Positions 5,585 through 10,210 of a stretch of DNA of 64,000 nucleotides are shown one piece after another. Source of the DNA: Natrinema sp. CBA1119 (lineage in GTDB: Archaea; Halobacteriota; Halobacteria; Halobacteriales; Natrialbaceae); contig NZ_PDBS01000001.1 of assembly GCF_002572525.1 (NCBI RefSeq), positions 1,240,001-1,304,000 on the forward strand, given 5' to 3'. The notes beneath the pieces are model-generated. The model did not search any database, was not told where the DNA came from, and saw nothing but the letters and a program-made list of their open reading frames with translations. The position numbers were made by a program, and so were the translations under genes. Position 1 is the stretch's first letter; each line of letters opens with the position of its first letter.

Positions 5585-5862
5585 ATATACCCCATTACCG
5601 CCAGCGGGGTCAAAAGGGTAGTGTTTCGTCGCCGCCGAAATTCGTCGTCTTCCCGGTTCGAACGTTTGAATATCCAATTTGAGTGAGTGAATCCCACCCG
5701 TGATGTGTGACTCCCGATCCACGGTGACGCGACTACATAATCCCGGAACGCCGCGATCCGAACTCACATCGCCACCGTAGCCGTGTGGCGGACACGACCC
5801 AATTCACCCGCGTGCAATCGCACGCAAGAGTCAAATCCCGTCGGCTCTTGTTAGTATCACAC

Positions 5863-6618
5863 ATGAATATTCGCGTTCAGGGGCCGGGTCCGACCTCTCC
5901 ATTCCTCAGCGCCCGTGACCTCTTCGAAACCGAACACGACCTCTCGCTGCCGGTCTACGTCCACCTCCGCGACGATCCGGACGAACGAACCTGGGCCGCT
6001 CACGACGACGATCGCCACGTGCTCAACATCTCGAGGCAGGCCGCCTCGTCAGCGATGGCCCGCGAACTCGCCCTTCACGAGTTCGCACACATGGCTCGCC
6101 ACGAGCAGCGACACCCCTCCCACACCCAGTCGACCGAGGAGGTGCTCTATCTCGCGCTGGCCGGCAAGAGCGTCGAACGGCGCAAACTCTCCCACTGCTA
6201 TCAGATTGCAAACCACATGAAAGATATCTACGCCGACGACATCACGCTCTCGGTCGGCCCCGGCGAGAAACTGCTCTCCTTCCTCGAGTCGAGCCTCGCC
6301 GCGGCGGTCGCCGACCGACCCGAGACACCGCCCCGACCCGGGCTCGAGCGTCTCTCTGCGAGCGCCGACCCGGAAATCACGGCCGTAAACGCCGCGTTCG
6401 CACTGGCGCTCGCGGAACGGCACGATCTCGTCGACAAGGACCACCGACTCTACGACCTCGCGCACGCGGCCGCGATGGATGCACCGAAGGTCGACTTCGA
6501 GGCGTTCAAACAGCGGTTCCGAGAGCTCGCACGGGAGCCCGACACGAGCTCTTACCGGCAGGTGCTCGTCGACGCGACACGGGCGTACGTCGGCGGCAAG
6601 GGACCCGCGGCGGACTGA
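5863..6618 (+). CDS. Conserved haloarchaeal HEXXH protein (DUF5781-like)
   Basis: 251 residues, soluble. An HEFAH motif (about residue 73; HEXXH) follows an N-terminal mixed domain, with further His residues just after it (MARHEQRHPSH), suggesting a zincin-type metal site. The rest is helical, with a second helical domain after a Pro-rich linker near residue 155. I recall a protein of this kind near EF-2 in other haloarchaea (DUF5781), where the function is unknown. ATG 5863 starts a typical hydrophilic N-terminus; an upstream GTG at 5785 is in frame but less likely. Protease activity is only inferred from the motif. Confidence 0.75.
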   Translation: MNIRVQGPGPTSPFLSARDLFETEHDLSLPVYVHLRDDPDERTWAAHDDDRHVLNISRQAASSAMARELALHEFAHMARHEQRHPSHTQSTEEVLYLALAGKSVERRKLSHCYQIANHMKDIYADDITLSVGPGEKLLSFLESSLAAAVADRPETPPRPGLERLSASADPEITAVNAAFALALAERHDLVDKDHRLYDLAHAAAMDAPKVDFEAFKQRFRELAREPDTSSYRQVLVDATRAYVGGKGPAAD

Positions 6619-6739: not shown

Positions 6740-6747
6740 GTATAAAA
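6740..6747 (+). promoter_or_regulatory. TATA-like box of the DUF7504-type gene
   Basis: GTATAAAA is centred about 23 nt before the ATG at 6766, which predicts a leaderless mRNA. It is one of the strongest TATA matches in the window. Confidence 0.6.
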
Positions 6748-6765
6748 CCGTGGAACATACTAGTG

Positions 6766-7464
6766 ATGCTCTCGGGAACGGACTGTGAAGGGACGAACGG
6801 GGACGGCTTCTCCGACGAGCTAACGCGGTTGAAACGACAGGGAGCGAGCGTTCTCGTCGTAGGTTCCGTCCAGCCTGACCAGCGTCGAGATACCTGTCAA
6901 CGGCTGCTAGGTTGTGGGGCCAGCCGTGTCCGGCGACGCGTTCTGGTCTCGACGACCGGCGAACCACACCCCGTCTCACACTTCGTCGACGACGGGAGTT
7001 CGGAGACGCTTTCGGTTATCGCCTACAACGCGCAGGCGCGCAGTGCCGCCGCGACCGCTCCGGATGTTTCGCCGTCGATCGAACCGTCGACGACCGATGT
7101 CGATACCCTCGCCGACCTCGGCATCGCCATCTCGAGTGCGATCGAATCCTTCGAAGCCACCGCCGACGTGCTCGAGCCGTCCGAGGTCAGGGTCGGAATC
7201 AATTCGTTGCTTCCCCTCCTCGAGGAGTACGGCAGACAGCGAATGTTCAAATTCCTGCATTTGATCAACGGCCGAACGAGGACCATCGACGGGATGGTGC
7301 ACTATCACCTCCCGGTCGAACGGGATGCGCAGGTCGTTCCAGTCCTCTCGCCGCTTTTCGACGTGGTCGTCGAACTTCGGGAGCAAAACGGCGACTACCA
7401 GGAGCGGTGGGATATCGACGACGGAGCCTACAGCTCCGGCTGGCTGCCGGTCGATTCGGAGTAA
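6766..7464 (+). CDS. RecA/KaiC-fold haloarchaeal protein (DUF7504-like)
   Basis: 232 residues. The start (SVLVVGSV, about residue 25) resembles the first strand of a RecA/KaiC-like fold, but the following loop lacks a canonical Walker A GxxxxGK[ST]. The C-terminal half has the phrases FKFLHLINGRTRTIDGMVHYHLP and LFDVVVELRE, which I know from haloarchaeal proteins called DUF7504 or loosely RecA-like. ATP hydrolysis is doubtful without the P-loop lysine. It lies 69 bp upstream of the CHAT gene, same strand, so co-expression is plausible. Its base composition is like the chromosome, unlike the AT-rich CHAT gene. Confidence 0.65.
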   Translation: MLSGTDCEGTNGDGFSDELTRLKRQGASVLVVGSVQPDQRRDTCQRLLGCGASRVRRRVLVSTTGEPHPVSHFVDDGSSETLSVIAYNAQARSAAATAPDVSPSIEPSTTDVDTLADLGIAISSAIESFEATADVLEPSEVRVGINSLLPLLEEYGRQRMFKFLHLINGRTRTIDGMVHYHLPVERDAQVVPVLSPLFDVVVELREQNGDYQERWDIDDGAYSSGWLPVDSE

Positions 7465-7533
7465 CGGTCCGTCGCTGGACCTGTCCATCAGTCCGATCTC
7501 GGGAACGGCCACACGCGATTCCAGAGACGCCCT

Positions 7534-7848
7534 ATGAGCCACTCATCCGTTTCAATGAAACCGAAATTCGAGCCGACAGAAGAGGGGATCGAGATAATCG
7601 ATCCGATCGAACGACACCGGTATCGACTGACGATGAACGAGCCGGTTTCGCTCGAGTCAGCGTCTGTTGATCAAATCGGGTTCCCTATTGATTCAGTGGT
7701 GAAGATTACAACTGATTCGATTACGCTACCAACAATCAACCAAATTCTCGTCCGGGATGCGGATAAGACGATGGTAGAAAAAGTCCCCCAAGCGAACAGG
7801 CTGACCTCCCGTATGGCGAATATATATTGGATATCTCGGGACCAATGA
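7534..7848 (+). CDS. N-terminal part of the CHAT protein, cut off by a -1 frameshift
   Basis: 104 codons. The first 84 residues (…EGIEIIDPIERHRYRL…, …IGFPIDSVVKITTDSITLP…) look like one beta-rich domain. After the C5 run at 7785-7789 the sequence in this frame (RMANIYWISRDQ) is unnatural, while the -1 frame continues smoothly with EQADLPYGEYILDISGPMKV. I therefore read 7534-9638 as one gene of about 701 residues with a one-base loss, or less likely a slippage site, near 7785-7789. No independent function is proposed for the fragment. Confidence 0.6.
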   Translation: MSHSSVSMKPKFEPTEEGIEIIDPIERHRYRLTMNEPVSLESASVDQIGFPIDSVVKITTDSITLPTINQILVRDADKTMVEKVPQANRLTSRMANIYWISRDQ

Positions 7849-9638
7849 AGGTCTATGCTGATATCGATAGCTCGGTTTTCATCTATTCAGACAATGATCA
7901 GACATACATTGATCTAGACGAGTCGACACAGGTGATCCTTGGTGCTCGATCATTCCATGAGCGACCAGCAGGAACGATTACAACGACAAACGACCCGGAA
8001 GACGTTATGGCAGCGGTGTCTGCCTTTGGTTCAGCATTGAAAACCACAACCCCAGAACGGACCTATCCGACACTCCGCGGCCATCCGCCCCGCCTTGAAA
8101 TAGGTGATGAATTACAGATTCCGGATGAATTTGCCCAAACGGGAACAGGAATCCGGATCAAGATTCCTCCGACACTTCAAAATACGTTCATAGTCGCGCC
8201 ATTAGCATACTATCTTGATGCTGATGTAGTTTCAGGGACGAATTCTAGATTAGTCACTAAATCTGGCTATAAACACTCTTTAGATAGTGGAAGGAATCTC
8301 GAAACAACGGTTGCACGAATACTGAAGCAGATATTCTTTCTCGACTGTGTAGCCCGCACAGAGGGGACAACGCCTCTTCCATTGTACGAACGGGAGGCAG
8401 TCGAATCTGTCCTTACATTTGATCCCGAAGTTGCATACGATCAACCACTTGTTAAACGGCTAGAAACATATCTGGAGATGCCATTTGCTTCTTTGCAACC
8501 ACATCTCCCTAGTTGGCGACTTGAGACACAGTTTAAGCCAACTGCAGAATATATTAAGTTCCTACCCTTCGTTACCAACGATCTAGCTATTATTAAAATA
8601 CAAGAAGAGGATGCTAGTCTATCATCATTTAACTCAACAGCGAAAAAGTCAATCAAAGAATTTACTCGAAGCAGTGAGGAATTCCATCGAAGTGCAAGTT
8701 CTCGAAGCAGCCGTGGGAACAAAACTATATCTGAATCCAAGAGCCCACCAACGGAGACAACAATTCGGCAATTATGGGCTGGTATTGATGGATCAGAGAT
8801 TACTAGTACAGCCCCATTGATGGCATATGAAAATAATATTGGACGGGCACCGAAAGATGGTCCTATTGAAATTGAAGTGATTTGCAATGATCCTGATATG
8901 GAGGAAGAGCTCAAGGGCGTTAACGGGACTTACGGTGCCCGCGAAGAGTTACCGTTTGAAACTACTATCCACTATGAGCTTACCACATCTGATCTTACAG
9001 ACGTATTGACAAGAGATAGTGATTTTCTACACTATATCGGTCATATAGATGAAGATGGATTTCAGTGTTCGGATGGGAAACTAAATGCTGCGACGGTTAA
9101 TACAGTAGGTGCAAAAGCGTTCCTACTAAACGCGTGTCAATCACACGAACAGGGAATCCACCTCGTTAAAGCCGGTAGTATTGGGGGAATCGTAACTCTC
9201 AGTAACGTTCCCAATAGTGGTGCAGTGAGCGTAGGAAACCTTATTGCTCAATTGTTGAACCTTGGATTCCCACTCTATGGTGCACTAGATATTGCCCGTC
9301 AAGAAAGTATCGTTGGGCAGCAATATCGTATGGTCGGTGATGCACGAACAACGATAGCACAATCAGAAATCGGCATACCAAATATTTGCTTAGTAAATGA
9401 GATAGAGGACGGAACTGTTGTTAATATATTACCATATATTTCAGCAGAGATTAGAAGAGGAGGTGTTTATTCACCCCGTATAGAACCAGTCAACCGGTAT
9501 AAGGTAGTCCCTCATGAAATACCAGATGTGTCAGTAACCGATCCAGAACTCAAGAAATTCTACGAAGAAGGACAATTTCCAGTATTTTGTAATGAAGAAA
9601 TTTGGTGGAGTGATGAATTACTTGATGATAGTCTCTAA
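7845..9638 (+). CDS. CHAT-domain (caspase-like) cysteine protease, main part
   Basis: 597 residues from ATG 7845; open in frame well upstream, consistent with a frameshift from the 7534 fragment. The C-terminal third is a CHAT domain (clan CD, caspase/HetF fold): the His block FLHYIGHIDEDGF (catalytic His codon 9042-9044), then 31 residues later the Cys block AFLLNACQSHEQG (Cys codon 9135-9137), then the GSIGGIVTLSNV strand typical of these proteins. Residues before it show no TPRs; there is a Ser/Arg/Lys-rich linker about 8630-8760. CHAT proteases act in regulated cell death and defence, for example Craspase and gasdermin-linked systems. Base composition is much more AT-rich than the flanking ribosomal genes, suggesting transfer. 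Substrate unknown; the convergent 41-residue peptide is a speculative candidate. Confidence 0.75.
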   Translation: MKVYADIDSSVFIYSDNDQTYIDLDESTQVILGARSFHERPAGTITTTNDPEDVMAAVSAFGSALKTTTPERTYPTLRGHPPRLEIGDELQIPDEFAQTGTGIRIKIPPTLQNTFIVAPLAYYLDADVVSGTNSRLVTKSGYKHSLDSGRNLETTVARILKQIFFLDCVARTEGTTPLPLYEREAVESVLTFDPEVAYDQPLVKRLETYLEMPFASLQPHLPSWRLETQFKPTAEYIKFLPFVTNDLAIIKIQEEDASLSSFNSTAKKSIKEFTRSSEEFHRSASSRSSRGNKTISESKSPPTETTIRQLWAGIDGSEITSTAPLMAYENNIGRAPKDGPIEIEVICNDPDMEEELKGVNGTYGAREELPFETTIHYELTTSDLTDVLTRDSDFLHYIGHIDEDGFQCSDGKLNAATVNTVGAKAFLLNACQSHEQGIHLVKAGSIGGIVTLSNVPNSGAVSVGNLIAQLLNLGFPLYGALDIARQESIVGQQYRMVGDARTTIAQSEIGIPNICLVNEIEDGTVVNILPYISAEIRRGGVYSPRIEPVNRYKVVPHEIPDVSVTDPELKKFYEEGQFPVFCNEEIWWSDELLDDSL

Positions 9639-9640
9639 CT

Positions 9641-9766
9641 CTATGGCCCTAAGAAAAGATTAGTATTTGCCGTGGCTGCCCCTGCCTGAGAAAGTAACAG
9701 CAGAATCGTGAACAGGGCGCCGATCATTCGCGGGTGATTCTTCAAGTACTGTGTAATGTCCGTCAT
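9641..9766 (-). CDS. 41-residue membrane/secreted peptide (DUF7503-like)
   Basis: ATG 9766 to TAG 9641, convergent with the CHAT gene and only 2 bp from its stop. The peptide has a charged start (MTDITQYLKNHPRM), a hydrophobic core (IGALFTILLLLSQAGAATA) and a short tail ending LFLGP. This pattern (K-x-HPRM, IGxLF, LLxQAGAA, terminal GP) matches my memory of the tiny haloarchaeal family DUF7503, which often neighbours DUF7504 genes. The AxA after the hydrophobic core could be a signal peptidase site, leaving a tail of about ten residues. Function unknown. Confidence 0.7.
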   Translation of the reverse strand: MTDITQYLKNHPRMIGALFTILLLLSQAGAATANTNLFLGP

Positions 9767-9794
9767 GGTACACTCGAAGTATAGTACCAGGCTG

Positions 9795-9810
9795 TAATTA
9801 ATTTATTTTA
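9795..9810 (-). promoter_or_regulatory. AT-rich promoter region of the 41-residue peptide gene
   Basis: TAATTAATTTATTTTA lies 29-44 nt before the ATG at 9766 on the minus strand. It is the only plausible TATA region for that gene, but an exact box cannot be picked. Confidence 0.35.
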
Positions 9811-10013
9811 ATATCTCTTTCAAAGGATAGATAATACCAATATGATAGACTACTTGTTGAAACGTTATTAAACGAATTAGTAGAACATCAAATACGAATA
9901 GCACCTCACTGGTGGTATTCGCAATCCAACTCCGAGCCGCTGTACCACCACTCGAGCGTCACTCGATGGGGGCTGTCAGGGTGAGATACCGGATGGAAAT
10001 CCAAGGAAGTGCT

Positions 10014-10210
10014 GTAGTAGCCACTGCAAGTCACTGCACACCTGATCGCACGACAGTAGCGCGGTTCGGAGCGAGCGCGGTTCGGAGCGAACGTAGTGAG
10101 CGAGAACCGCGGGGATGCGAACGGCGAGCGAAGCGAGCCGTGAGCGAACGGAGTGAGCGAGAACTGCGGACTGTGCGATCAGTGTGTAACTAGTTGCAGT
10201 TGGTACTATA
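10014..10210. repeat. Long imperfect palindromic element (MITE-like)
   Basis: The ends are inverted repeats. GTAGTAGCCACTGCAAGTCA plus TGCACACCTGATCGCAC at 10014-10051 pairs with GTGCGATCAGTGTGTAAC plus TAGTTGCAGTTGGTACTAT at 10173-10209. Between them lie nested GAGCGAAC-type hairpins. A shorter relative with similar ends and the same GATCGCAC core is at 21095-21171. The surrounding gap 9767-10282 holds no other feature I can support. Confidence 0.6.

Follow-up and report, generated by a model that had tools for sequence, protein, structure and literature searches.

A predicted CHAT protease of haloarchaea encoded tail-to-tail with a microprotein that ends in Gly-Pro

The 64,000-nucleotide stretch of DNA analysed here (the window; Natrinema sp. 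CBA1119, contig NZ_PDBS01000001.1, positions 1,240,001 to 1,304,000) carries three adjacent genes: a gene of the DUF7504 family, a gene whose product we assign to the CHAT (clan CD) cysteine proteases, and, convergent with the latter, a gene encoding a 41-residue peptide of the DUF7503 family (Table 1). An original prediction, made from the window sequence, had described a CHAT protease with a membrane or secreted peptide as its closest candidate substrate, and had evoked a role in defence or cell death. A structural model and a conserved catalytic pair support the protease assignment, and comparison of loci strongly supports the conclusion that the DUF7503 peptide is the obligate, dedicated partner of CHAT. 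The most constant part of this peptide is its C-terminal residues, which end in Gly-Pro. The tail-to-tail pairing of CHAT with a Gly-Pro peptide is so far undescribed.

The window CHAT protein alone gave no CHAT match in Pfam, NCBIfam or PADLOC. The best place for the Pfam CHAT profile PF12770 in its own genome scored 10.7 bits, below the cut-off, and a sequence search of solved structures with a first profile returned no match. Among 28 relatives, 9 matched PF12770 (best 4e-5). A first AlphaFold2 (AF2) model, built from 28 sequences, was poor (predicted local distance difference test, pLDDT, 64.5) and was replaced by a family model built with 138 relatives (pLDDT 91.6; predicted template modelling score, pTM, 0.91). 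The top Foldseek matches were SAVED-CHAT (3e-6), separase, gingipain and Craspase. VIA-align gave Z values of 19.2 for gingipain R, 19.1 for SAVED-CHAT, ~15-16 for separase, 14.1 for Csx29 and 12 for caspases, the match to the caspase-like fold spanning model residues ~320-602. The caspase domain comes after a stretch of ~430 residues, and a known fold match covers only part of this stretch. The predicted catalytic His (H495 of the family) is present in 132 of the 138 relatives and the predicted catalytic Cys (C526) in 131, so that each residue of the pair is kept in ~95% of them; both are present in the window protein, at the codons (9042 and 9135) proposed originally. The predicted fold, together with this dyad, supports the view that the family is one of CHAT cysteine proteases. 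Four CHAT relatives (L209, L210, L212 and L218; loci are designated by L numbers) have neither catalytic residue and no Gly-Pro peptide, and on their sequences they appear to be natural catalytically dead paralogues.

The window peptide matched DUF7503 with 70.3 bits and the upstream protein matched DUF7504 with 197.8 bits, for a cut-off of 27 in both cases. In 80 CHAT loci from named genomes, a DUF7503 gene was found convergent right after CHAT in 72 cases, and a DUF7504 gene directly upstream of CHAT in 51. A genome-wide search for DUF7503 in 47 genomes, made independently of CHAT, returned 47 genes above the cut-off, every one of which lies convergent (tail-to-tail) to a CHAT gene at a distance of 3-233 nucleotides (nt). 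No DUF7503 match over the cut-off was obtained in seven tested genomes that lack the CHAT family. These results establish the co-occurrence of the families and, together with the constraint on the tail described below, strongly support the peptide of the original prediction as a dedicated partner. Several loci among L054-L067 carry tandem CHAT pairs, with one peptide gene lying between both copies.

In DUF7503 peptides, a conserved [HN]P[RK]M motif (NHPRM in the window) is combined with a hydrophobic helix and a variable segment, and the terminal Gly-Pro is nearly invariant. In helix-type peptides the leader is conserved and resembles a signal peptide, with an AxA-like site followed by the variable tail. 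The pooled ratio of non-synonymous to synonymous differences (pN/pS) was 0.225 (76 related pairs, which are not independent). Over all CHAT clades, a convergent open reading frame (ORF) ending in Gly-Pro-stop was present at 109 of 152 CHAT loci, compared with 5 of 614 control ORFs, which were long ORFs and not verified genes (Fisher p=3e-89, a value that is only indicative because the loci are related). All four Gly codons (34/30/27/15), all four Pro codons (49/36/12/9) and the three stop codons (54/34/18) are used; therefore, the Gly-Pro end is constrained at the protein level, and a DNA-level cause of its conservation was rejected.

In distant CHAT clades the peptides are otherwise unrelated in sequence and keep the Gly-Pro end (for example ...NAHSTSTGP), as does the unrelated peptide of the third CHAT locus of this genome (...AKRVSTYGGP). 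The membrane helix is absent from the distant-clade peptides that keep this end and is dispensable; the view of the 'membrane peptide' as the essential feature is not supported, the helix being missing in several clades in which the Gly-Pro tail stays. The catalytic dyad was present in 96 of 96 CHATs with a Gly-Pro peptide, and the seven dyad-less CHATs were without such a peptide (p=1.5e-4, not corrected for relatedness). At L102, L119, L233 and L234 the DUF7503 peptide stops exactly before Gly-Pro (...GTIS, ...GAIR, ...TTIS and ...GSIY). Some CHATs without a peptide have Gly-Pro ORFs at other nearby positions, which on inspection were attributed to chance.

The tail was multiplied in Haloplanus, for which 12 genomes were compared (L220-L231; L228 is partly masked). 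Three of them (L227, L229 and L230) encode the usual membrane form with a single SGP end (...ASNGGGISGP, ...AGNSGAISGP and ...ASNGAATSGP). In the others the helix is lost and the tail unit is repeated in tandem, for example TADGNSGGISGP plus one variable residue, with 2-13 regular copies depending on the species; in L225 and L226 these are preceded by one variant copy. Single-tail and tandem forms sit beside CHATs that are 79-100% identical. In Haloplanus ruber (L220), the 13 units are identical as protein and differ per pair at 5.0 of 11 codons, all differences being synonymous; the residue directly after each unit varies (Y/F/S) and the unit is invariant. In the other arrays, too, no non-synonymous difference was seen between units. 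These observations indicate that each unit is under protein-level selection and, since the tail units persist without the helix, that a membrane pore cannot be the essential function in Haloplanus.

Homologues of the window CHAT gene are single unbroken ORFs of ~700 amino acids (aa). In the window, a change of frame separates the first ~80 codons (from ATG 7555) from the ~610 that follow, because one base is missing near 7787, where the window reads CCC-CC and Natrinema zhouii, the nearest relative (73% identical CHAT protein), reads CCCTCC. This 1-nt loss was the sole indel within the gene in an alignment to 29 relatives and Natrinema zhouii, and was found in none of the homologues compared at that site. 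With unbroken homologues and no indel other than this 1-nt loss, programmed frameshifting was rejected; the deletion reflects a mutation or an error of sequencing. The catalytic codons had thus been placed correctly in a gene that is not intact. Two further CHAT copies of the same genome have open frames, of 697 and 720 codons, and both are accompanied by a Gly-Pro peptide of their own. Apparent CHAT splits at L058, L060, L062, L074, L104 and L125 are not frameshifts: their coordinates correspond to two domain matches in one frame. With a GC content of 0.44, compared with 0.63 for the whole window, this CHAT gene is AT-rich; the GC content of CHAT is also low in some relatives (L050, L056 and L065) and normal in others.

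The DUF7504 assignment of the upstream gene was confirmed. No Walker A motif (GxxxxGK[ST]) was found in an alignment of 21 CHAT-linked members, and a relation to RecA/KaiC was hinted weakly (E about 0.3); a reading of the RecA-fold protein of the original prediction as an active RecA ATPase is not supported. Its position suggests that the DUF7504 protein may act as a sensor or regulator. For ten loci that lack DUF7504, no match in Pfam was obtained with the genes lying upstream. At two plasmid loci (L233 and L234), a gene for a HalOD1 output domain protein immediately precedes CHAT, where an annotated DUF7504 gene would otherwise lie.

In the window the module lies between S7 and EF-2, a placement shared by 18 Natrialbaceae loci (L050-L067); in other haloarchaeal loci it lies elsewhere, and its description as part of a ribosomal locus is valid for Natrialbaceae but not beyond. 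The DUF5781 gene, a conserved neighbour in Natrialbaceae only, is context and probably not part of the module. A box similar to the AT-rich box of the window is present upstream of the peptide genes of relatives and may serve as a promoter. A repetitive GAGCGAG-rich intergenic sequence (10060-10170) separates the peptide gene from S7.

Table 1. Features of the CHAT locus and its surroundings, in window coordinates
Feature	Position	Strand	Basis or remark
EF-2 gene		-	left of the DUF5781 gene
DUF5781 gene	5785..6618	+	PF19093, E=3.6e-134
DUF7504 gene	6766..7464	+	co-directional, upstream of CHAT; PF24336, E=2.7e-58
CHAT gene, whole, split	7555..9638	+
CHAT N-terminal fragment (MKPKFEPT...)	7555..7848	+	tblastn/hidden Markov model (HMM) match to homologue N-termini
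1-nt deletion site	7785..7798	+	alignment with relatives
CHAT main ORF, 603 aa (remaining N-terminal region and predicted caspase-fold domain)	7827..9638	+
Predicted catalytic His codon (HYIGH)	9042..9044	+	column conservation among 138 relatives
Predicted catalytic Cys codon (LLNACQS)	9135..9137	+	column conservation among 138 relatives
DUF7503 peptide, 41 aa	9641..9766	-	PF24335, E=9.9e-20
Gly-Pro codons GGG CCA, immediately before stop TAG	9644..9649	-
AT-rich promoter-like box TTAAAATAAATTAATTA, upstream of peptide gene	9795..9811	-	upstream sequences read directly
S7, S12, NusA-like and RNA polymerase genes		-	after DUF7503

Of the 293 genomes analysed from the order, 268 carry the CHAT family, with 1-6 matches per genome as counted (only top candidates scored per genome); this distribution makes it a core family and not a patchy defence gene. 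In 25 plasmid records, CHAT proteins were mostly annotated as 'hypothetical', one being a 'caspase family protein' and one a 'CHAT domain-containing protein'. No CHAT relative was found in the viral contigs scanned. PADLOC gave no match to a known defence model, although absence from its library is not a disproof. Neither a gasdermin gene nor a CRISPR context or Cas7-11 was found among the neighbour genes scanned (EF-2, DUF5781, DUF7504, S7, S12, NusA-like and RNA polymerase). The near-universal presence, the ribosomal neighbourhood in one family and the lack of relatives on the viral contigs point to a core role, and no evidence was obtained for the defence or cell death function initially envisaged.

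What the peptide does for the protease is a matter of degrees of likelihood. We give about even chances to the proposal that it is the dedicated substrate or precursor of CHAT, recognised through its C-terminal tail. The system would be a two-gene protease-partner module, often with a DUF7504 gene ahead, in which the microprotein would be expressed tail-to-tail with CHAT from its own promoter. Its tail, with a free Gly-Pro end, would be the element recognised by CHAT, and the remainder would be a delivery part, in some forms a membrane helix, in others a soluble basic peptide or a tandem tail array. The protease would be triggered, possibly via the DUF7504 protein or another upstream gene, and would then cleave the microprotein, the tail unit being released or destroyed as a signal. 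In this scheme we infer physical binding, cleavage, the direction of control, the trigger and the promoter. The more specific version, in which the caspase-like protease processes the microprotein to a short Gly-Pro-ended peptide, as a core archaeal precursor system with membrane single-copy and soluble multi-copy forms, is put forward tentatively.

Four points speak against the substrate proposal. First, a Gly-Pro ORF is missing at ~43 of the 152 CHAT loci; some of these hold the second copy of a tandem pair next to one shared peptide, and others are without any. Second, a few peptides do not end in Gly-Pro (L054, L066, L115, L102, L119, L233 and L234), their endings being AGT, AGL, LGT or a stop just before Gly-Pro. 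Third, the helix-type peptide has positive residues before the helix, like a signal peptide, an orientation in which the tail would lie outside and apart from CHAT, for which no obvious signal sequence is seen; in the repeat forms, by contrast, the tail would be inside. Fourth, a regulator would show an identical pairing pattern.

The possibility that the peptide is such a regulator is the best of the alternatives, even if we doubt it. The tail would bind CHAT, perhaps its large N-terminal region, as an activator or inhibitor, the true substrates lying elsewhere, and membrane clustering or tandem repeats would supply multivalency. The pairing and tail data fit this equally well, the protein identity of all repeat units is as expected for multivalent binding, and the ~430 residues ahead of the caspase domain have a known fold match for only part of their length. 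However, no CHAT ligand of such a type is known, and the variable residue that follows the invariant units of L220 fits processing into units too.

It is unlikely that the peptide is an exported pheromone precursor, whose variable tail of 7-9 residues would be set free outside the cell, where the producing cell or others would sense it. The conserved leader with its AxA-like site followed by a variable tail is what such a precursor would look like, and the arrays of identical units separated by a variable spacer are reminiscent of multi-copy pheromone precursors; however, by hydropathy the tandem and basic forms have no export signal, no receptor or exporter is linked to the locus, and the paired protease is apparently cytosolic. 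Still less probable is a membrane effector, that is, a helix peptide acting as a toxin or pore that CHAT releases or unleashes, as for bacterial gasdermins: most forms do have a single hydrophobic helix with conserved residues within it, but the helix is absent from the Haloplanus array forms and from several distant clades that have the tail, and the module is core, not patchy. Finally, a C-terminal Pro slows translation termination, and Gly-Pro abuts a stop codon of free choice, as would suit an ORF that stalls termination and acts in cis or senses translation; this we hold to be the least probable reading of all, as internal array units far from the stop are equally conserved and cis attenuation is unlikely for a gene that is convergent with CHAT and not upstream of it.

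Strong caspase-like activity was reported in Haloferax volcanii, and Archaea lacked clear caspase homologues (PMC3615174). Many Haloferax species carry the CHAT module, and Haloferax volcanii itself has DUF7503 and DUF7504 matches over the cut-offs. We hypothesize that the CHAT family provides a concrete candidate gene for this activity. More generally, a near-universal and mostly 'hypothetical' haloarchaeal protein can now be given a predicted fold and catalytic site as well as a dedicated partner, and the C-terminal Gly-Pro tail becomes a testable candidate recognition signal; should the tail indeed be released, archaea would have a peptide signal of a new kind.

The families of the window's peptide and upstream gene, DUF7503 and DUF7504, are described in Pfam only as of function unknown. 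Searches of an open literature library returned no paper on either of them or on haloarchaeal CHAT, and none of the papers covered describes the pairing with CHAT. Dedicated substrates are already known for CHAT proteases; for a Gly-Pro-tailed microprotein with tandem-array forms no counterpart was found. Gingipains and separase (clan CD) share the caspase-like fold, but their gene context and partners differ from those of haloarchaeal CHAT. The closest CHAT structure is SAVED-CHAT, from a type III CRISPR proteolytic filament; the match is limited to model residues 430-601, so that no SAVED match was seen, and its partner genes differ from those of this family. A parallel for the proposed recognition of the tail is Csx29-Csx30 (Craspase), also a CHAT protease with a dedicated neighbouring partner whose C-terminal part is implicated: Csx29 recognises Csx30 via its C-terminal domain, and removal of the 20 C-terminal residues abolishes cleavage (PMC10028731). 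In contrast to Craspase, the haloarchaeal CHAT is a core gene, with no Cas7-11 or CRISPR context in the genes examined, and its partner is a peptide of 41-48 aa or a repeat array instead of a protein of 565 aa. Read as a precursor system, its switch between single-copy membrane forms and soluble multi-copy arrays would be akin to what is seen in multi-copy peptide hormone precursors.

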